7,616 nt of DNA from Pseudomonadota bacterium (GTDB lineage: Bacteria; Pseudomonadota; Alphaproteobacteria; Acetobacterales; Acetobacteraceae): positions 1 through 7,616 of the forward strand of contig JAKBCD010000065.1 of assembly GCA_021808205.1 (NCBI GenBank). Reading direction: 5' to 3'. Below are positions 496 to 7,616 of the stretch, piece by piece. The number at the start of each line of letters is the position of its first letter. The stretch's first letter is position 1. The translations under genes and the position numbers were made by a program. Below the pieces are notes generated by a model. That model did not search any database. It had not been told where the DNA came from and saw only the letters and a program-made list of their open reading frames with translations.

Positions 496-506
496 CGCCT
501 ACACAT

Positions 507-580
507 GTCTCCGTAGCTCAGCAGGATAGAGCACCAGATTCCTAATCTGGGGGCCGTGGGTTCGAATCCCGCCGGGGACA
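507..580 (+). tRNA. tRNA-Arg (anticodon CCT)
   Basis: The full cloverleaf can be drawn by eye. The acceptor stem is 507-513 with 573-579 (7 bp, one U-G pair at 510/576). The D stem is GCTC 516-519 with GAGC 529-532. The anticodon stem is CCAGA 534-538 with TCTGG 546-550, closing the loop TTCCTAA (539-545), so the anticodon is CCT (541-543), which reads AGG. The variable loop is 5 bases (551-555). The T stem 556-560/568-572 encloses TTCGAAT, and A580 is the discriminator base. The 3' CCA is not encoded (TAC follows), so it must be added by CCA-adding enzyme. A T5 run at 585-589 lies just downstream and may help 3' end formation. The nagA-murQ start codon is only 26 bases past the tRNA end. Confidence 0.97.
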
Positions 581-606
581 TACCTTTTTCAAAACATCAC
601 GGTATC

Positions 607-2607
607 ATGCGGATTTTCGCCCAGCGCCTGTTCGATGGTGAAGATTTCACCGGCCCCGCCACCGTCGAGGTCGCGGGCGGGCGGATCGTATCGGTGCAGC
701 CGGGTGAGGCGGCGGCGGATGTGCATCTCACCCATGGCGTGCTGGGGCCAGGGCTGATCGACCTGCACAACAACGGCGCCTTTGGGGTGGATTGCGCCAG
801 CGCCACACCGGAAGGCTGGAACTGCTTCGTGGAAGGGCTGGCGGAACGCGGTGTCACCGCCGTGCTGCCCACCATCATCACCGCACCGCTGGCCGAAATT
901 GGGCAAGCTGCTACGCGGCTGAGGGCGGCCATGCAACGCCATCCGGGGCTTCTGGGGCTGCATCTGGAAGGGCCGTTTCTCAACCCCGCCAAACGCGGCG
1001 CCCACCGGGAGGATTGGCTGCGCCTGCCGGATAGTACGGCGCTGGACGAATTGCTGGACGGTCCGGCGGCTGCAGTGCTGCGGCTCGTCACCCTGGCGCC
1101 GGAATTGCCGCACGCGCTGGCGGCCGTTGCAAGATTCGCAAAGACGGGCATTGCCGTCTCGCTCGGCCACACAACAGCGGATGCAGAGCAAATGCAGGCC
1201 GGGGCGGATGCGGGGGCGCGGCTCGTCACGCATCTGTTCAACGCGCAATCCCCGCTCAGCCACCGCACCCCCGGCGCGCCGGGCGTGGCGCTGACCGACC
1301 CGCGCCTTGCCCCCTGCATCATCGTGGACGGGGTGCATGTGGACCCGGCGGTGGTGCAGATCGCCTTCGCCGCCTGCCCGCGCGCCATCGCGGTCACGGA
1401 TTCCATCGCCCTGGCCGGGCTGGAAATTGGGGCCACGCTGGATTTTGGGGGTGAATCTGCCACATTGGGCAAGGATGGGGTGGGACGCCGGGCGGATGGC
1501 ACCATCGCGGGCGCCGCCATCACGCTGGATGAAGGCGTGCGGCGGATGATCAGCTTCGGCATTGCGCCTGAGATAGCGCTGGCCGCCGCAACCTCCCGCC
1601 CCGCCACGGCTTTGGGGCTGAACACAGGGCGCATTGCCCCCGGCGCGGTGGCGGATCTGGTCTGGTGGTCCGATGATTTCCACGCCCTGCAGGTGTGGCG
1701 CGGTAGCATCGCGGCCCCGGCCCTGAAGCCACGCGGCACGGAAGTCGCGCGTACCGACCTTATGGATTTGGAGGAGCGCGGCACGGAAAACATCGTGCGG
1801 CTGTTCCTGGGCCAGGAAGCCGCTGCCTTGCGCGCCCTGGCCGCCGCATCCCCCGCCCTCGCCCGGCTAATCGATAGCGTGGCGGCACGGCTCTCCGCTG
1901 GCGGGCGGCTGTTTTATGCCGGGGCAGGCACATCCGGGCGACTTGGCTTGCTGGATGCGGTGGAGTGCCGCCCCACCTTCGGGGTGGAACCCGGCCTCAT
2001 CATTCCGCTGCTGGCGGGCGGGCCAGGCGCGTTCATCCAGGCGGCGGAAGGCGCCGAGGATAACGAAGCCGCCGCGCGCGCCACGCTGGATGAGCACGGC
2101 TTCAACGCCAAGGACGCGCTGGTCGGCATCGCCGCCTCCGGCGCCACGCCCTTCACCCTGGCCGCGCTGCGCCACGCCACCAGCCTGGGCGGGCTGACCG
2201 GCGCCATCGTGAACAATGCGGGCACCGCCATGGCCAGAGCCGCGCAAATAGCGGTGGAGATCCTCTCCGGCCCGGAGATTATCGCCGGGTCCACGCGGCT
2301 TTCCGCCGGGTCCACCGAAAAAATCGCGCTGAATATCCTGTCCTCGGCGATAATGGTCCGGCTCGGCAAAACCTACGGGCCGTTCATGGTGGATATGCGC
2401 GCCAGCAACACCAAGCTGCGAAACCGCGCGCTGCGCATGGTGATGGCGCTGACGGATGCGGATGAACAGCGCGCAAGCCTTGAACTGGAAGCCTGTGGAA
2501 TGCATGTTAAACTGGCCGTGCTGGCCATAAGGCTTGGCCTGGCGCCGGAAGCGGCCCGGGAAAAGCTGGCGGCGGCGGGCGGCTCGCTGCGGCGGGCTTT
2601 GCTGTAA
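607..2607 (+). CDS. nagA-murQ: Fused NagA-MurQ: GlcNAc-6-P deacetylase / MurNAc-6-P etherase
   Basis: One uninterrupted 666-residue frame. Residues 1 to about 380 are NagA (amidohydrolase superfamily). They show the metal strand PGLIDLHNNG (His54, Asn56), HLEGPF (Glu121), GHTT (His188), THLFNA (His209, Asn212), DGVHVD (His244) and VTDS (Asp265, the presumed catalytic acid/base). Residues about 386-666 are MurQ (SIS-fold etherase), with GAGTSGRLG (439-447), DAVECRPTFG (Glu453) and EGAED (Glu484). Glu453 and Glu484 match E. coli MurQ Glu83 and Glu114. MurQ converts MurNAc-6-P to GlcNAc-6-P plus D-lactate and NagA then yields GlcN-6-P plus acetate, so the fusion carries two consecutive cytoplasmic steps of cell-wall sugar recycling. 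The NagA part is full length. The MurQ part is slightly short at its N-terminus and lacks the usual TE-x-x-N segment. The start at 607 is preferred because earlier in-frame sequence lies in the tRNA. No clear Shine-Dalgarno is visible. Confidence 0.95.
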   Translation: MRIFAQRLFDGEDFTGPATVEVAGGRIVSVQPGEAAADVHLTHGVLGPGLIDLHNNGAFGVDCASATPEGWNCFVEGLAERGVTAVLPTIITAPLAEIGQAATRLRAAMQRHPGLLGLHLEGPFLNPAKRGAHREDWLRLPDSTALDELLDGPAAAVLRLVTLAPELPHALAAVARFAKTGIAVSLGHTTADAEQMQAGADAGARLVTHLFNAQSPLSHRTPGAPGVALTDPRLAPCIIVDGVHVDPAVVQIAFAACPRAIAVTDSIALAGLEIGATLDFGGESATLGKDGVGRRADGTIAGAAITLDEGVRRMISFGIAPEIALAAATSRPATALGLNTGRIAPGAVADLVWWSDDFHALQVWRGSIAAPALKPRGTEVARTDLMDLEERGTENIVRLFLGQEAAALRALAAASPALARLIDSVAARLSAGGRLFYAGAGTSGRLGLLDAVECRPTFGVEPGLIIPLLAGGPGAFIQAAEGAEDNEAAARATLDEHGFNAKDALVGIAASGATPFTLAALRHATSLGGLTGAIVNNAGTAMARAAQIAVEILSGPEIIAGSTRLSAGSTEKIALNILSSAIMVRLGKTYGPFMVDMRASNTKLRNRALRMVMALTDADEQRASLELEACGMHVKLAVLAIRLGLAPEAAREKLAAAGGSLRRALL

Positions 2608-2640: not shown

Positions 2641-3141
2641 ATGATCGGTTTGGCGCGAAAAGCGGATGATTTTATCATCGACCAGTTGCTGCAACCGGGG
2701 GTGGACCGGGCAGAATGGTGGCTGGGGGTGAAGCTGTTTACCCTCGCGCGGGTTTGCACTGTGCTGGGCGCCCTGGCCGGGCTGGCCTGGATAAAATTGT
2801 TCGACCGCGCCTATTCATCGGATTTCTTCGAGGACATGCTGTGCCTCGCCATCATGGCGGGTGCTGCCTATGTGCAGATCAACACCCAGCAGGCACGCGG
2901 CGCACGGCGCGCGAACACGGCCCCCGCCGTGCGGCTTACGGGCTTGCTATGGCGCACCCTCTGGCTGCTGGACCTTGTGCTTTTCGTAACGCAATGGCCG
3001 CTCCAGGGGCATACACAGCTCATCTGGAATTTTATCTGGACGCTGCTGCTCGTGCTGCCCTACTGGCTGATCTGCTGCCACGAGGCGCCGCCGCGCGAAT
3101 ACCGCAGCACCTTGCGCTATGCCACGGTGCCGGCGCGTTAA
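2641..3141 (+). CDS. Small multi-pass inner-membrane protein of unknown function
   Basis: The 166-residue product is not recognised as a named family. It has four hydrophobic stretches that look like membrane helices, at about 31-52, 64-80, 99-117 and 127-146. A polar N-terminus precedes them, and a basic loop (86-98) lies between helices two and three. The tail after the last helix begins CCHEAPPREYR, a Cys/Pro/Arg-rich end of the kind seen in small proteobacterial membrane proteins. The positive loop suggests it faces the cytoplasm. The start at 2641 is supported by GAGG (2629-2632) 8 bases upstream; a GGAG (2635-2638) sits too close. It begins 33 bases after the nagA-murQ stop on the same strand with no terminator between, so co-transcription is likely. 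A role in muropeptide or sugar handling would be pure inference. It ends 15 bases from the convergent ispA stop. Confidence 0.75.
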   Translation: MIGLARKADDFIIDQLLQPGVDRAEWWLGVKLFTLARVCTVLGALAGLAWIKLFDRAYSSDFFEDMLCLAIMAGAAYVQINTQQARGARRANTAPAVRLTGLLWRTLWLLDLVLFVTQWPLQGHTQLIWNFIWTLLLVLPYWLICCHEAPPREYRSTLRYATVPAR

Positions 3142-3156
3142 GCCAGCCCGGTCGCG

Positions 3157-4068
3157 TTAACTTTTCCGGGACACCGTGAACTGCGCCAGGGCCTGCAGCA
3201 AAGCCGCCCGCTCGCCGAATATATCCAGATGTCCGGCCGCCTGCTCGGCCAGCTTCTGCGCCTGCGCCCTGGCGCGCTCCAGCCCTAAAATCCGCACCAT
3301 CGTGGCCTTGCCCGCCGCGGCATCCTTGCCAGCGCTTTTACCCATCTCTTCGGCCGTTGCGGTTTCATCCAGCACGTCGTCGTAAATCTGGAAGGCGGCA
3401 CCAAGATCCCGCCCGTAAGCCATGATGGCCTGGCGCTGCGGGGCTGGTGCCCGCCCCAAAATGGCCCCCGCCTCGGCGGCATATTGTATCAGCCGCCCGG
3501 TTTTGAGCGCCTGCAGCCGGGTGATCTCCGGGCCGGTGAGGTCCTTGCCCTCTGATTCCATGTCGATCATCTGCCCGCCGACCATGCCGCGCATGCCCGA
3601 CGCGCAGGCCAGCGCCAGCACCAGCTCAATACGTGCCTCAGGGTCGGCATGGGTGTCTTCCTCGGCCAGCACCTCGAAGGCGCGGGTTTGCAGCGCGTCC
3701 CCCGCCAGAATGGCGGTGGCTTCGTCGAATTTTTTGTGGCAGCTCGGCTGGCCGCGGCGCAGATCGTCATCGTCCATCGCCGGCAAATCGTCATGCACCA
3801 GCGAATAGGCGTGCAGCATTTCTACCGAGGCCGCCACGCGCGCGGCACAGGTGCGGTTGACGGAGAACAGCTTCGCTACCTCCATCACCAGAAACGCGCG
3901 CATCCGCTTGCCGCCATTCAGCACGGCATAGCGCATCGCCTCCACCAGCCTGGCCTCGGCACCGGCGGGCACCGGCAGCAGCGCCTCCAACTGCGCTTCC
4001 ACCAGGCGGGAGGTTTCAGCCAGCGCCTGGGCCAGCGTGTCTGGTTTGCGCACCACATCAAGCGCCAT
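3157..4068 (-). CDS. ispA: Farnesyl diphosphate synthase (short-chain polyprenyl synthase)
   Basis: The 303-residue length is normal for bacterial FPP synthases. These condense IPP with DMAPP and then with GPP to give farnesyl diphosphate, the precursor for undecaprenyl phosphate, quinones and hopanoids. Visible motifs are NGGKRMR (51-57, IPP-binding), the first Asp-rich motif DDLPAMD (93-99) with the two-residue insertion of bacterial FPP synthases, LKTGRL (188-193), and the second Asp-rich motif DDVLD (230-234). Tyr88, five residues before the first motif, fits a short-chain (C15) product, though GPP or GGPP synthesis cannot be excluded. GGGGA 5 bases upstream of the ATG, inside the end of xseB, is a plausible ribosome binding site. 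Only 1 base separates it from the xseB stop, so it is translated as the last gene of the minus-strand run. dxs, often next to ispA in related genomes, is absent here. Confidence 0.95.
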   Translation of the reverse strand: MALDVVRKPDTLAQALAETSRLVEAQLEALLPVPAGAEARLVEAMRYAVLNGGKRMRAFLVMEVAKLFSVNRTCAARVAASVEMLHAYSLVHDDLPAMDDDDLRRGQPSCHKKFDEATAILAGDALQTRAFEVLAEEDTHADPEARIELVLALACASGMRGMVGGQMIDMESEGKDLTGPEITRLQALKTGRLIQYAAEAGAILGRAPAPQRQAIMAYGRDLGAAFQIYDDVLDETATAEEMGKSAGKDAAAGKATMVRILGLERARAQAQKLAEQAAGHLDIFGERAALLQALAQFTVSRKS

Positions 4069-4069
4069 T

Positions 4070-4306
4070 TTATTCCCCGTCCTTCAAGGCCAGCGAGCCA
4101 TCCGCCCGCGCCACAATCGCCTGCACCCGCGCCTCGGCATGGGCCAGCTTTTCCTCACAGTGTTTTTTCAGGGCCGCCCCGCGCTCATACGCCGTAATCG
4201 CCTCCTCCAGCTTTTGCTGGCCAGATTCGAGCCCGCGCACAATCGCCTCAAGTGCTGCCAATGCCTCTTCGAAAGACATCGCGGCAATGTCGGAATTATT
4301 CGTCAT
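4070..4306 (-). CDS. xseB: Exodeoxyribonuclease VII small subunit
   Basis: This 78-residue protein has the XseB pattern: SFEEALAALEAIVRGLESG (11-29), then LEEAITAYERG, then a second charged helix with KLAHAEARV. These form the two-helix bundle that binds the large subunit XseA. Exonuclease VII degrades single-stranded DNA to oligonucleotides in the cytoplasm, and XseB has no nuclease site of its own. xseA is not in this window. The start at 4306 is supported by GGGAGG 4 bases upstream; an alternative Met10 lacks such support. The gene lies between the HDAC-family gene (45 bases upstream) and ispA (1 base downstream). The xseB-ispA pairing is widespread in proteobacteria and is probably conserved for operon reasons rather than shared function. 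Confidence 0.93.
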   Translation of the reverse strand: MTNNSDIAAMSFEEALAALEAIVRGLESGQQKLEEAITAYERGAALKKHCEEKLAHAEARVQAIVARADGSLALKDGE

Positions 4307-4310
4307 GCAG

Positions 4311-4316
4311 CCTCCC
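4311..4316 (-). promoter_or_regulatory. Shine-Dalgarno of xseB
   Basis: GGGAGG on the minus strand, 4 bases before the ATG at 4306. It is the strongest ribosome binding site seen in the four-gene run, and it fixes the xseB start in preference to the internal Met10. Confidence 0.6.
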
Positions 4317-4351
4317 TATCCGCGCCTTGCCGGAATCGCAACCACGGCCGT

Positions 4352-5275
4352 TCAGAGCCGCATAAGCCCCCGCACATGCGCCGCACAGCTTTGGGCAAGC
4401 GCCTCAAGGTTATACCCGCCTTCGAGAACGGAAACGACCCGACCCGGGCAGCATTCATCCGCCACGGCCAGCAGCTCCTGCGTGATCCAGGTATAATCCG
4501 GCACCTGCAATTGCAGCTGCGCCAGCGGGTCGGCCGCATGGGCATCAAACCCGGCGGAGATGATAAGCAGCTCCGGCGCGAAGGCCCGCAGATCCGGCAA
4601 AATGCCTTCCCGCCACGCGTCTCTGAACTCCTTGCTGCCAGCACCCGGCGGCAGCGGCATGTTGAAGATATTGCCCACCCCGGTTTCAGATTTTGAGCCG
4701 GTGCCCGGAAAGCACGGAGACTGATGCGAGGACGCGTACAGCACCGTCGGGTCCTGGTAGAAAATCTCCTGCGTGCCATTGCCATGGTGCACATCAAAAT
4801 CTACCACCGCCACGCGCTTTAACCCCCATTTCGCCTGGGCGTGGCGGGCGGCCACGGCAACATTGTTGAAAAAACAAAACCCCATCGCGCGGTCTGTTTC
4901 CGCATGGTGGCCGGGCGGGCGCATGGCCACAAAGGCGGCCTTGGCCTTGGCCTGCATCACCACATCCACCGCCGCCACGGCCCCGCCGGCGCCGCGCAGC
5001 ACGGTTTCCAGCGTGCCGGGGCTGAAAATGGTGTCACCGTCTATGGCGATCATCCGGTCCTGCGGCAGGGCAAAAATCGCGTCCACAAACGCCGGATCAT
5101 GCACGGCTATCAGCTGCTCGCGCGTGGCCATCGGCGCTTCCTCGCGCAGCAGAGGAGCAAATTCGGGCGCCTCCAGGGCGCGCAGCACATAACGCAGCCG
5201 GTCCGGGCATTCAGGGTGGTGCGGGCCTGTATCATGCTCCAGGGCCACCAGATGGGTAAAAACTGCGACGCTCAT
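4352..5275 (-). CDS. Histone deacetylase-family zinc amidohydrolase
   Basis: The 307-residue product carries every hallmark of the arginase/deacetylase fold. These are HPECPDR (20-26), the catalytic His pair in RPPGHHAE (His123, His124), [12 protein letters not shown] (132-143), the zinc ligands Asp161 and His163 in [11 protein letters not shown], Asp244 in GFDAH, and the transition-state Tyr288 in EGGYN. Bacterial members remove acyl groups from small molecules such as acetylpolyamines, or from acetylated proteins (AcuC-like). The substrate cannot be told from sequence. The active site looks intact and no signal peptide is seen, so it is cytoplasmic. Its ATG overlaps the TGA of the upstream TusA-like gene as ATGA, implying coupled translation. 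The HDAC-xseB-ispA order is common in alphaproteobacteria, so the position says little about the substrate. Confidence 0.93.
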
Positions 5276-5508
5276 TTATCTACTCGCTGGCATTTGATGG
5301 AAAAACTGAACACGCCCTTGCTCTCGCTGGCGGCGATAAGGGCGTGGCCGGTGGTGTGGCAGAATTCTCTGATGTCGGCCAGCGCCGCCGGGTCTGTTGC
5401 CAGAATCCGCAGCTTTTCTCCTGGCGCCAGCCCCCGCAACGCCCGCGCCGCCCGCAGCACGGGGATGGGCGATTTTTGGTATTGCGCATCAATCAGGCAT
5501 TCGCTCAT
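5272..5508 (-). CDS. TusA/SirA-family protein lacking the catalytic cysteine
   Basis: The 78-residue product aligns along its whole length with Tus[16 protein letters not shown] (6-20), [12 protein letters not shown] (29-40), DIREFC (45-50), GHALIA (54-59) and a closing strand FSFSIK. TusA carries sulfur as a persulfide on the Cys of its CPxP motif for tRNA thiolation and other pathways. Here the motif reads SPIP, with Ser13 encoded by TCG, so that route looks closed. The remaining cysteines (4, 50, 73) are not at that site. The start at 5508 gives the family length. Met codons at 5529 and 5577 are also in frame but add residues with no TusA similarity, and none of the three has a good ribosome binding site. 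It is the first gene of the minus-strand run and overlaps the next by 4 bases. It may be a binding or regulatory paralogue, or a decaying copy. Confidence 0.8.
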
Positions 5509-5570
5509 GCCAGAAACATGCGCCTTCATATGGGCTTGAGCAAGCCAGCATTTCGGCTCAGAACCGGGCC
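5509..5570. promoter_or_regulatory. Divergent intergenic region with a 14-bp near-palindrome
   Basis: This 62-bp gap separates the TusA-like start (-) from the ROK kinase start (+), so it or the adjacent coding ends should hold both promoters. GGCTTG (5533-5538) and CAAGCC (5541-5546) form an inverted repeat with 6-bp arms and a 2-base centre. That is the size and symmetry of a dimeric repressor's operator, although a short RNA hairpin is also possible. No convincing -35/-10 pair was found on either strand. If an in-frame upstream start of the TusA-like gene were used, part of this region would be coding. Confidence 0.4.
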
Positions 5571-6470
5571 ATGGCACATCGCATCGGCATCGATTTAGGC
5601 GGAACCAAAACCGAGATTATGGTGTTGGGCGAGGCCGGCACGCCCCTGCTGCGCCGCCGCCGCCCCACCCCCACGGGGTATGAATCCGCCTTGCGCACCA
5701 TCGTGGAGATGGTGGCCGAGGCTGAGCAGGAAACCGGCCCCGCCAGCGTGGGCGTGGGCATTCCCGGCTGCATCTCGCCTGCCACCGGGCTGGTGAAGAA
5801 CGCCAATTCCAACGCGCTGAACGGCCATGCGTTCGACCGCGACCTCGCAACCCTGCTGGGCCGCCCGGTGCGCGTGGCCAACGACGCGAACTGCTTTGCC
5901 CTCTCCGAAGCCACGGACGGCGCGGGGGCGGGCTGCGCCGTGGTGTTCGGCGTGATTCTGGGCACCGGCACCGGCGCGGGTATTGTGGTGAATGGCGCCA
6001 TTCTGGAAGGCCGCCACCGCCTGGCGGGCGAATTTGGCCATACCCCCTTGCCATGGCCACGGCCAGATGAGCTGCCGCTACCGGGCTGCTGGTGCGGGCA
6101 GGCGGGTTGTCTGGAACTCTACCTTGCTGGCCCCGCTCTGGCGCGCGACTGCGACGGGCCAGACCATACGGACGCCAGCGCCCTGCCCGCCCGCGCCGCG
6201 ACGGGTGACGAAACAGCCCGCGCCGCGCTGAACCGCCATGCAAACCGGCTGGCCCGCGCGCTCGCCACCGTCACCAATCTGCTGGACCCGGACTGCATCG
6301 TGCTCGGCGGCGGGCTCTCCAACATGGCGCATCTCTATGCCGAGCTGCCCGGCCTGATGCGGCCGTATGTGTTCTCAGACCATGTGGCGCCGAATATCGT
6401 GAAGGCAAAGCACGGGGATTCGTCTGGCGTACGCGGCGCGGCCTGGCTATGGCCCGCGCATAACGGTTAA
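5571..6470 (+). CDS. ROK-family sugar kinase, Mak (fructokinase)-like
   Basis: The 299-residue product is a complete ROK kinase. It has the phosphate-binding loop GIDLGGTKTE (6-15), GIPGCISP (63-70), KNANSNALNG (76-85), catalytic Asp105 in NDANC, and GTGTGAG (131-137). The zinc site is made of His157 (EFGH) plus Cys173, Cys175 and Cys180 (CWCGQAGC), followed by VLGGGLSN (244-251). The C-terminus KHGDSSGVRGAAWLWP (280-295) and the KNANS block closely match E. coli Mak, which phosphorylates fructose and mannose. Related ROK enzymes phosphorylate GlcNAc, so an amino-sugar role is possible but not shown. The start at 5571 gives the standard N-terminus; upstream in-frame sequence does not resemble ROK proteins. 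The ribosome binding site is weak. The gene is divergent from the TusA-like gene, and its TAA shares bases with the stop of the convergent dipeptidase. Confidence 0.93.
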   Translation: MAHRIGIDLGGTKTEIMVLGEAGTPLLRRRRPTPTGYESALRTIVEMVAEAEQETGPASVGVGIPGCISPATGLVKNANSNALNGHAFDRDLATLLGRPVRVANDANCFALSEATDGAGAGCAVVFGVILGTGTGAGIVVNGAILEGRHRLAGEFGHTPLPWPRPDELPLPGCWCGQAGCLELYLAGPALARDCDGPDHTDASALPARAATGDETARAALNRHANRLARALATVTNLLDPDCIVLGGGLSNMAHLYAELPGLMRPYVFSDHVAPNIVKAKHGDSSGVRGAAWLWPAHNG

Positions 6471-7498
6471 TCCGCCGCCGCCAGCCGTTCCTGCGCTACG
6501 TCCTCGGCCTTGCGCATCAACCGCAGGAAGTTCCCGCCCCAGATCTTGGCGATCTCCTCCCGCCCATAGCCGCGCCGGGCCAGAGCGGCGGTCAGGTTCG
6601 GGGTTTGCGCCGCGTTCATGTAACCGCGCACGCCGCCGCCGCCGTCAAAATCCGTGCCGATGCCCACATGGTCTATCCCCATGCGCTTCACAGCGTAATC
6701 CACATGGTCGACGATATCCTCCACCGTCAGATCCATCGCCCGGGCCTGCGGCCGCAGAAAATTGGAAACGATGGTGATCTGCGCCAGCCCGCCGGTGCCG
6801 GCCAGCATCTCCAGCTGCTCATCGTCCAGATTTCGCTTATGGTCGCACAACGCCTTCATGCAGCTATGCGTCGCCACCACCGGCGTGCGGGAGCGCCGAA
6901 CCGCCTGCATCATGGTTTTTTTGGAAGCATGGGAGACGTCCACCAGCACGCCCAGCTCGTTCATCCGCGCCACTACATCCTGCCCAAAGTCAGACAGCCC
7001 GCCATATTCCTCCACCTCGTCCCCCAGCATGGGCAGCGCGATGGCGGCATCGGCAATTTCATTATGGCCGTTATGGGTCAGTGTCATGTAGCGGATGCCC
7101 GTTGCCGCGAACACATCCAGCAGCGCCATATTTTTGCCGATGGCATAGCCATTCTCGATCGCCGGAATAATCCCGGACCTGCCGGCCGCGAAAGCGGCCT
7201 CTACCCCCGCCGCGCTCAGCGCCAGCATCCCGCCCGCATCGCTCTGGGCCATGGCGGCAATGGAGGCAAGCATGGCCCGGGCGCGGGCTGTTGCCGCCTC
7301 ATGCCCCGCCTCATCCCTGCGGCCTTGCGGAATATAGGCCGCGAAACATACGGCACTCACCCGCCCGCGCTTCAGCTTGGGCAGGTCCACACAGCGCGGC
7401 CCATCCTCAAACGGGCTGGGGCCTTCGGGCCAGGGAATATCAACATGTGTATCAATGACCAGCAGGCCATCATGCGGATCGTCGCTCATTGCCCCCAT
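6467..7498 (-). CDS. M19 membrane-dipeptidase (renal dipeptidase) family protein
   Basis: The 343-residue product has the full zinc dipeptidase signature in order. The signature comprises IDTHVDIP (His18, Asp20), IPAIENG (Glu115, bridging ligand), LTHNGHNEIAD (140-150), DVSHAS (His190), ATHSCMKALCDHKRNLDD (His211) and GIGTDFDGG (Asp283). M19 enzymes hydrolyse dipeptides, including ones with a D-residue at the C-terminus, so cell-wall dipeptides are possible substrates; others in the clan act on unusual peptides or lactones. No signal peptide is present despite the family name, so a cytoplasmic location is likely. The frame is open upstream to 7612, but that extension is Arg-rich, unlike the family, and collides with a possible divergent gene. 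Met at 7498 (AGGG about 9 bases upstream) or at 7489 is more credible. The 3' end overlaps the kinase stop codon. Confidence 0.92.
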   Translation of the reverse strand: MGAMSDDPHDGLLVIDTHVDIPWPEGPSPFEDGPRCVDLPKLKRGRVSAVCFAAYIPQGRRDEAGHEAATARARAMLASIAAMAQSDAGGMLALSAAGVEAAFAAGRSGIIPAIENGYAIGKNMALLDVFAATGIRYMTLTHNGHNEIADAAIALPMLGDEVEEYGGLSDFGQDVVARMNELGVLVDVSHASKKTMMQAVRRSRTPVVATHSCMKALCDHKRNLDDEQLEMLAGTGGLAQITIVSNFLRPQARAMDLTVEDIVDHVDYAVKRMGIDHVGIGTDFDGGGGVRGYMNAAQTPNLTAALARRGYGREEIAKIWGGNFLRLMRKAEDVAQERLAAAD

Positions 7499-7541
7499 GG
7501 TTGAGCGCCCTGCGGCCCGCGTCAAGCGCCTTGCGCATAAC

Positions 7542-7547
7542 GGAGGG
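7542..7547 (+). promoter_or_regulatory. Shine-Dalgarno-like GGAGGG before a GTG
   Basis: GGAGGG lies 5 bases before the GTG at 7553. It is one of the best Shine-Dalgarno matches in the window and the main reason to suspect a + strand gene leaving the right edge. Confidence 0.35.
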
Positions 7548-7552
7548 TAAAG

Positions 7553-7616
7553 GTGCCGCCGCCGCCGGGGCGCGTAATGCCCCTTCGGGCAAGGCGCCCA
7601 CCCGCGCCGCATATAC
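7553..7616 (+). CDS. Possible 5' end of a gene running off the window
   Basis: The frame from GTG at 7553 (or ATG at 7577) stays open to the window edge, about 21 codons. It encodes a Pro/Arg-rich start, MPPPPGRVMPLRARRPP if the GTG is read as Met. Support comes from the well-placed GGAGGG and from a sensible divergent layout: 54 bases separate it from the dipeptidase start at 7498. The stretch is far too short to name a family, and Pro/Arg-rich frames are common by chance in DNA this GC-rich. It may simply be intergenic DNA. Confidence 0.25.
   Translation, partial: MPPPPGRVMPLRARRPPAPHI

Follow-up and report, generated by a model that had tools for sequence, protein, structure and literature searches.

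One gene in the DNA analysed here, a window of 7,616 nucleotides from a bacterium of the Acetobacteraceae, encodes a NagA-type deacetylase followed by a MurQ-type etherase in a single polypeptide. MurQ converts MurNAc-6-P into GlcNAc-6-P and D-lactate, and NagA converts GlcNAc-6-P into GlcN-6-P and acetate. We consider it very probable that one protein serves these two consecutive steps of peptidoglycan-sugar recycling and that it arose by a single fusion of neighbouring genes; both activities and the direction of the flux are predicted. The NagA-MurQ fusion is genuine and not a sequencing artefact, since 111 aligned relatives are fused alike and carry the expected catalytic residues, and the codon signal is continuous. 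The features of the window are collected in Table 1.

Table 1. Features of the fused gene and its surroundings (window positions)
Feature	Position	Strand	Remarks
tRNA-Arg (CCT)	506..581	+	ends 25 nt ahead of the ATG of the fusion
Fused gene, NagA-type deacetylase then MurQ-type etherase	607..2607	+	666 codons + stop; family models, relatives, codon signal
NagA half, residues 1-367, amidohydrolase fold	607..1707	+	TIGR00221 252 bits; 2p53 TM 0.90 of target; E121, H188, H209, R220, H244, D265 in 112/112
Linker, residues 368-378	1708..1740	+	11 residues; lowest pLDDT of the model
MurQ half, residues 379-666, SIS fold	1741..2604	+	PRK05441 334 bits; 4lzj E=4e-64; 4s12 TM 0.95; E453, E484, N601, K603 in 112/112
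Codon of S566	2302..2304	+	lysine in H. influenzae and Yersinia MurQ at the aligned position
ROK-family sugar kinase	5571..6470	+	family models; putative source of sugar phosphate, candidate only

One open frame for two domains

The frame starts with the ATG at 607 and ends with the stop codon at 2605-2607 without an internal stop. A longer alternative frame from the GTG at 556 begins within the tRNA-Arg gene, so the ATG is the better start. The third-position G+C content was even along the fused frame (0.79 in NagA, 0.80 in residues 350-400 and 0.81 in MurQ). When five close relatives (L001-L005) were compared with the window, both halves differed mostly at third positions, and no internal stop was present in any of the five. 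Pfam placed Amidohydro_1 at residues 48-356 and a GKRP-type SIS domain at 418-522. A protein search gave 1729 matches, and all of the best 120, which include the window's own protein, carried PF01979 and PF22645 at 98-100% query coverage. The original prediction had described NagA and MurQ as fused in one 666-residue frame and had proposed a search for database matches that span both domains; the uninterrupted frame, the two family models described below and these two-domain matches bear it out.

To follow the conservation, 112 of the 175 proteins listed by two protein searches were aligned, the window's protein included. The 111 relatives were single-chain across the joint, and the frameshift or stop near residues 370-390 that had been considered at the outset was not seen. 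The order of the domains was as first described, with NagA at about 1-380 and MurQ at about 386-666, whereas the boundaries had to be moved: the MurQ half starts nearer to 379 and the NagA half covers about 1-367, leaving the 11-residue linker between them. The stretch between G367 and E379 had 11-15 residues in 89 rows and 18-20 in 20 rows, with 26, 33 and 54 residues in one row each, so that 109 of the 112 linkers were 11-20 residues long; they varied both in length and in letters. An internal restart that would yield a separate MurQ is improbable: there is an ATG at residue 386, but a methionine occurs there in only 9 of 112 rows and no Shine-Dalgarno-like run precedes it. Three fusions (L018, L102 and L103) stop at 642 residues, some 24 residues before the end of the MurQ half; in G286, too, the flagged stops fall beyond the end of a 642-residue frame.

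The AlphaFold2 model, built from the 112 fusions, had a mean pLDDT of 93.8 and a pTM of 0.75. The lowest block-mean pLDDT values of the model, 76 and 72, were found at residues 361-380. Because the joint is the least confident part and the pTM is 0.75, a fixed arrangement of the two active sites cannot be claimed.

Predicted activities and pathway context

The NagA half was matched by the NCBIfam model nagA TIGR00221 over residues 8-359 with 252.1 bits (cut-off 225.65), and the narrower NagA model PRK11170 was not reached (194.4 of 483). A sequence search of the PDB returned the NagA proteins of B. subtilis (8e-51) and E. coli (3e-50), and Foldseek with the AlphaFold2 model returned NagA 2p53. 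The residues E121, H133, H188, H209, R220, H244 and D265 were identical in all 112 rows and H54 in 110. Four of these, E121, H188, H209 and D265, align with E131, H195, H216 and D273 of E. coli NagA, which we take to be the metal ligands and the catalytic Asp; the aspartate D273 is the position mutated in the structure 2p53 (D273N). The NagA proteins of E. coli (1yrr, 2p50, 2p53) and B. subtilis (2vhl) resemble the NagA half in the fold and in the aligned metal and substrate residues, but are stand-alone proteins. At the first metal-site position the fusion has H54-N55-N56, whereas E. coli NagA has Q-L-N and B. subtilis NagA has H-I-H.

The MurQ half was matched by PRK05441 over residues 377-665 with 334.1 bits (NCBIfam, cut-off 168) and by PRK12570 (296 over 255). 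The MurQ equivalog TIGR00274 was just missed, with 293.2 against 302, which is 9 bits short. In the PDB sequence search the MurQ proteins of H. influenzae and Yersinia came up with E-values from 8e-64 to 2e-61, and Foldseek superimposed the model on 4s12_A (TM 0.95) and 4lzj_A (0.96 of the target) with an rmsd of 1.2. T442, E453, E481, E484, S511, K572, N601 and K603 were identical in 112 of 112 rows and S443 in 110. E453 and E484 align with Glu89 and Glu120 of H. influenzae MurQ, presumably the two catalytic glutamates. The MurQ half shares its fold, the two glutamates and both fixed residues (N and K) of the NxK motif with the MurQ proteins of H. influenzae (4lzj) and Yersinia enterocolitica (4s12).

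One lysine is different. In the H. influenzae and Yersinia proteins, which are separate proteins, a lysine is retained after GS(T/S)R(L/M) (Lys202 of 4lzj, counted on the alignment), whereas the window has S566 at this position. Of the 112 fusions, 109 have S and 3 have A here; the residue is T in the split relatives G009 and G029, N in six fusions of the opposite order and K in the other aligned MurQs of the family. The lysine replacement predates the fusion, and it need not spoil the etherase, as the G029 protein with T passes TIGR00274 (310.1 against 302). It is the sole sequence reason to check the predicted etherase activity and not to assume it. As originally predicted, catalytic and ligand residues are visible in both halves, identical throughout the 112 fusions, and together with the family models and the PDB matches they support the assignment of the halves to consecutive recycling steps. 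A bifunctional enzyme is likely on this evidence.

The pathway genes were surveyed in 15 genomes that carry the fusion and in five relatives (G009, G029, G061, G137 and G199), 20 in all. AnmK was found in all 15 fused genomes, as were a GH3 family protein, the family to which NagZ belongs, and TIGR00901, which we take to be AmpG, with 14 of the 15 over the cut-off. NagB (TIGR00502) was over the cut-off in none of the 15 and gave weak matches in four (22.8 to 41.3 bits), and nothing in the 15 closely matched the NagB-II-like gene of the relatives. The strong SIS match in each fused genome sits in a frame of at least 609 residues, which we read as GlmS. A BadF-type kinase over the cut-off was found in 0 of 15, and a PTS EIIC over the cut-off in 7 of 15 and in none of the other 8. 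One ROK kinase matched at 1e-20 in each of the 15, distantly in G259.

The trio of AnmK, MurQ and NagA is shared with the E. coli-type route of MurNAc recycling. That route has NagB feeding glycolysis, whereas the fused genomes have no NagB over the cut-off. As AnmK is present in all 15, with neither NagB over the cut-off nor a close NagB-II-like match in any, recycling to UDP-GlcNAc is likelier than catabolism. MurNAc-6-P made by AnmK would enter the C-terminal MurQ half, which is predicted to cleave the lactyl ether and to yield GlcNAc-6-P and D-lactate. The N-terminal NagA half would then take off the acetyl group to give GlcN-6-P. With no NagB over the cut-off in these genomes, the probable fate of GlcN-6-P is a return to UDP-GlcNAc, most likely by way of GlmM and GlmU. 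In the fused genomes, MurQ may supply a major part of the GlcNAc-6-P. According to the available parts of two papers, NagA of the E. coli scheme has further GlcNAc-6-P to process, made by NagK (PMC13046382) and by NagE (PMC13041923). With these further sources to serve in that scheme, the 1:1 ratio of NagA to MurQ that a fusion would fix, according to the original prediction, is not obviously the right one.

Distribution and origin of the fusion

The nearest named relatives were three Rhodospirillales MAGs with 84-85% identity and Acidocella aminolytica with 81%. Of 38 genomes in the genus of A. aminolytica, 35 had a match across the junction; the remaining three assemblies measure 2.0-2.4 Mb, with no completeness given. 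No other match at E<=1e-40 was present in 31 of the 35, whereas four had a second piece on another contig, which in three of them completes the first piece. In G694 the two pieces have residues 119-258 in common, so this genome may hold a second copy or be a mixture. When three genomes were examined to 1e-3, the only other match was weak, covered residues 508-581 and lay in a 623-aa frame that we read as GlmS. Acidiphilium, including A. acidophilum, is also fused, as found in a second protein search with the query G266. The fusion is widely kept in this group of acid-loving bacteria. Among 299 genomes sampled from the family, with up to four candidates scored per genome, 208 had some match and 13 were fused, 12 of these in a single frame; the fusion of G026 has a frame break in the NagA half. 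Among 385 genomes sampled from the class, six matched at E<=1e-60 and only A. aminolytica was fused, with up to three candidates scored per genome. Both samples are weak negatives.

Protein names at JGI already read etherase/deacetylase. These proteins, known by their names alone, belong to the window's family and have the same two domains in the same order in 665-714 aa. In the literature searched, which covered subscription journals thinly, no title or abstract described a NagA-MurQ fusion, and the fusion passages in the available part of PMC11980594 concern GFP tags and vectors. Database entries that are named after one half conceal the other.

Maximum-likelihood trees of the halves were calculated with 67 and 79 rows after redundant loci and short pieces had been excluded. 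The fused NagA halves formed one clade of 37 rows with a support of 92/94, below the star of the tool, and the fused MurQ halves formed one clade of 39 rows with 98/94, which was starred and includes one MurQ-only row. Both clades were sister to relatives that have the order nagA-murQ as separate frames. In G009, four genes follow one another, the NagB-II-like SIS gene, nagA, murQ and anmK, and nagA and murQ overlap by 8 bp. The NagB-II-like gene of G061 reached 199.9 of 430 with the NagB-II model, under the cut-off, and GlmS models fitted it similarly. G061 and G137 have the NagA of the fusion lineage without the MurQ of the lineage adjoining it. As the fused halves group together beside split relatives of the same order, the trees point to a single old fusion of neighbouring nagA and murQ genes in the window's lineage.

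A MurQ-only gene in G199 lies directly after a HIT-domain gene, as does the fusion of G156, and it falls among the Acidiphilium-type fusions in the tree. We read it as a later loss of the NagA half. The NagA half of the lineage (L009 5878-6960) groups more closely with the NagA of an actinomycete, Actinocrinis, than with the family's other NagAs; with one actinomycete in the tree, this is only a hint of a transfer between phyla.

A different gene order was seen elsewhere in the family. Seventeen unfused pairs of the family with both genes close, chosen for this closeness and so no census, were all in the order murQ-nagA and in different frames. In G300 the two genes overlap by 4 bp. The joined MurQ and NagA of G300 were used as a query for fusions of the opposite order, and among the best 120 of 3596 matches six proteins of 675-691 aa had MurQ first and NagA second (P0224, P0233, P0235, P0248, P0261 and P0263). 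They carry both domains in one chain, like the fusion in the window, but in reversed order. P0235, which represents 145 sequences, passed nagA TIGR00221 (237.4 of 225.65) and PRK05441 and was just under TIGR00274 (295.2 of 302). In quick trees, for which the loci of a 25-name list were removed from the earlier rows, the six formed a clade of their own with both halves, away from the window's family (SH-aLRT 93 for MurQ and 100 for NagA). Two further proteins with MurQ before NagA were not counted, as they look like gene-model or frame errors: P0176 from a eukaryote collection, with 886 aa and an extra tail, which is probably a bacterial contaminant or a merged gene model, and P0177, which has an arginine-rich stretch at the joint.

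A different partner was found in one genome, G029. There, a 621-codon frame on the minus strand (L043 3401-5266) encodes a BadF-type kinase domain (residues 7-259) followed in the same chain by MurQ (321-613). The best NCBIfam kinase match of this domain was NagK_SO3507 with 70.2 bits, far under the cut-off of 370. The nagA gene overlaps the kinase-MurQ frame by 8 bp, and a sodium-solute symporter and anmK come after. As in the window, a MurQ, here of a sister lineage, lies downstream of nagA in frame with another recycling-type enzyme, but its partner is a kinase-like domain and not NagA. The NagA-MurQ joint connects two known enzymes; it is uncommon and has evolved more than once.

Explanations for the joint and the gene neighbourhood

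Why the two genes were joined is a separate question. There is about an even chance that the joint is a neutral accident, in which overlapping neighbour genes were joined and the two domains have remained independent on a string. The split neighbours of the same order with their 8-bp overlap in G009 would be a fitting starting point, and the complete domains on either side of a short variable linker and the loss of one half in G199 agree with this explanation. However, the fusion has been retained across a genus, and the fusion of the opposite order is an independent case.

A selected coupling of the two reactions is possible, but rather doubtful in our judgement. The fusion would pass GlcNAc-6-P on or keep it low since it is harmful, in cells that are without NagB and in which GlcNAc-6-P perhaps comes mainly from MurQ. 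Conservation of the junction in the genus (35 of 38 genomes), the separate family of opposite order and the MurQ-kinase joint in G029 speak for it. Other sources of GlcNAc-6-P may be few, as judged from the lack, over the cut-off, of a BadF-type kinase in all 15 fused genomes and of a PTS EIIC in eight. According to the available part of PMC13046382, a joint deletion of both nagA genes of Caulobacter could not be made, which its authors tentatively ascribe to a toxicity of GlcNAc-6-P. On the other hand, no channel geometry is seen with a pTM of 0.75, a joint of low confidence and a linker that varies in length and letters; the ROK kinase matched in each of the 15 fused genomes might phosphorylate GlcNAc; G199 is without the NagA half; and drift also fuses adjacent genes. 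In a wider form, the joining of MurQ to a neighbouring recycling enzyme, be it NagA in either order or, in one sister genome, a kinase, would be a recurrent adaptation. In the window's lineage, with no recognisable NagB outlet, it would commit MurNAc-6-P to GlcN-6-P and hold free GlcNAc-6-P low; this too we regard as rather unlikely. If it were true, the halves would share a pool of GlcNAc-6-P that is hard for bulk GlcNAc-6-P to enter. For the reading that we prefer, a bifunctional recycling protein, we assume that the joint mainly serves to tether and co-express both enzymes and not to channel. With split relatives and an independent counterpart of opposite order, this natural two-in-one enzyme offers a clean case for studying the fusion of metabolic neighbours, and it also bears on whether GlcNAc-6-P has to stay low.

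It is improbable that the SIS half is a relative of MurQ without etherase activity, such as a GlcNAc-6-P dehydratase like NagS of Streptomyces, whose product would be used by NagA. As described in the available part of PMC12680351, NagS (SCO4393, 9eol) is related to MurQ, has the SIS fold and an amino-sugar 6-phosphate as substrate, and partners NagA, which takes the NagS product as its substrate; it is a precedent for an altered chemistry in a MurQ-like protein. The missing MurQ lysine would agree with such a change; its place is taken by S, A or T in the lineage, and in the fusions of opposite order by N. But NagS is an unfused chain of 251 residues and is far in sequence from the MurQ half of the window, which matched MurQ 4lzj at E=4e-64 and NagS 9eol at E=0.094. 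Both glutamates, N601 and K603 are identical in all 112 fusions, the G029 relative with T passes TIGR00274, and AnmK is present in the 15 fused genomes, with anmK beside murQ in G009. An assembly or base-calling artefact, for which the frame break in the fused relative G026 could be cited, is practically excluded by 111 aligned relatives from several sources that are single-chain across the joint and by the continuous codon signal.

Upstream of the fusion, a tRNA on the same strand ends 13-45 nt before the fusion start in 19 of the 35 distinct loci that could be examined, a 36th being too near to the contig end. It is tRNA-Arg(CCT) in 6 loci including the window and tRNA-Thr(TGT) in 13; the starts of L106 and L107 are poorly placed. 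That two different tRNAs occupy the same place suggests that the mRNA of the fusion may be released by cleavage from a tRNA transcript.

Downstream, the window encodes from 3141 to 7616 a farnesyl diphosphate synthase, a small xseB-like frame (assigned by eye), a histone-deacetylase-like protein, TusA, the ROK kinase and an M19 dipeptidase. The ROK kinase fitted a fructokinase model best (361.6 of 443) and NagK with 239.1 of 380, both under the cut-off. Only L001 has the complete gene block, and L004 has it apart from the last gene, which was not detected. In the other long loci nothing but the small downstream gene remains next to the fusion, so a functional link such as an operon with the ROK kinase was dropped as a candidate. 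The small gene, at 2641-3141 in the window, encodes a 166-aa protein without a Pfam match. Of the nine long Acidocella-type loci with sequence at this place, L060 is without it, and a relative lies just downstream of the fusion in the other eight (L001, L004, L005, L007, L008, L052, L053 and L057).
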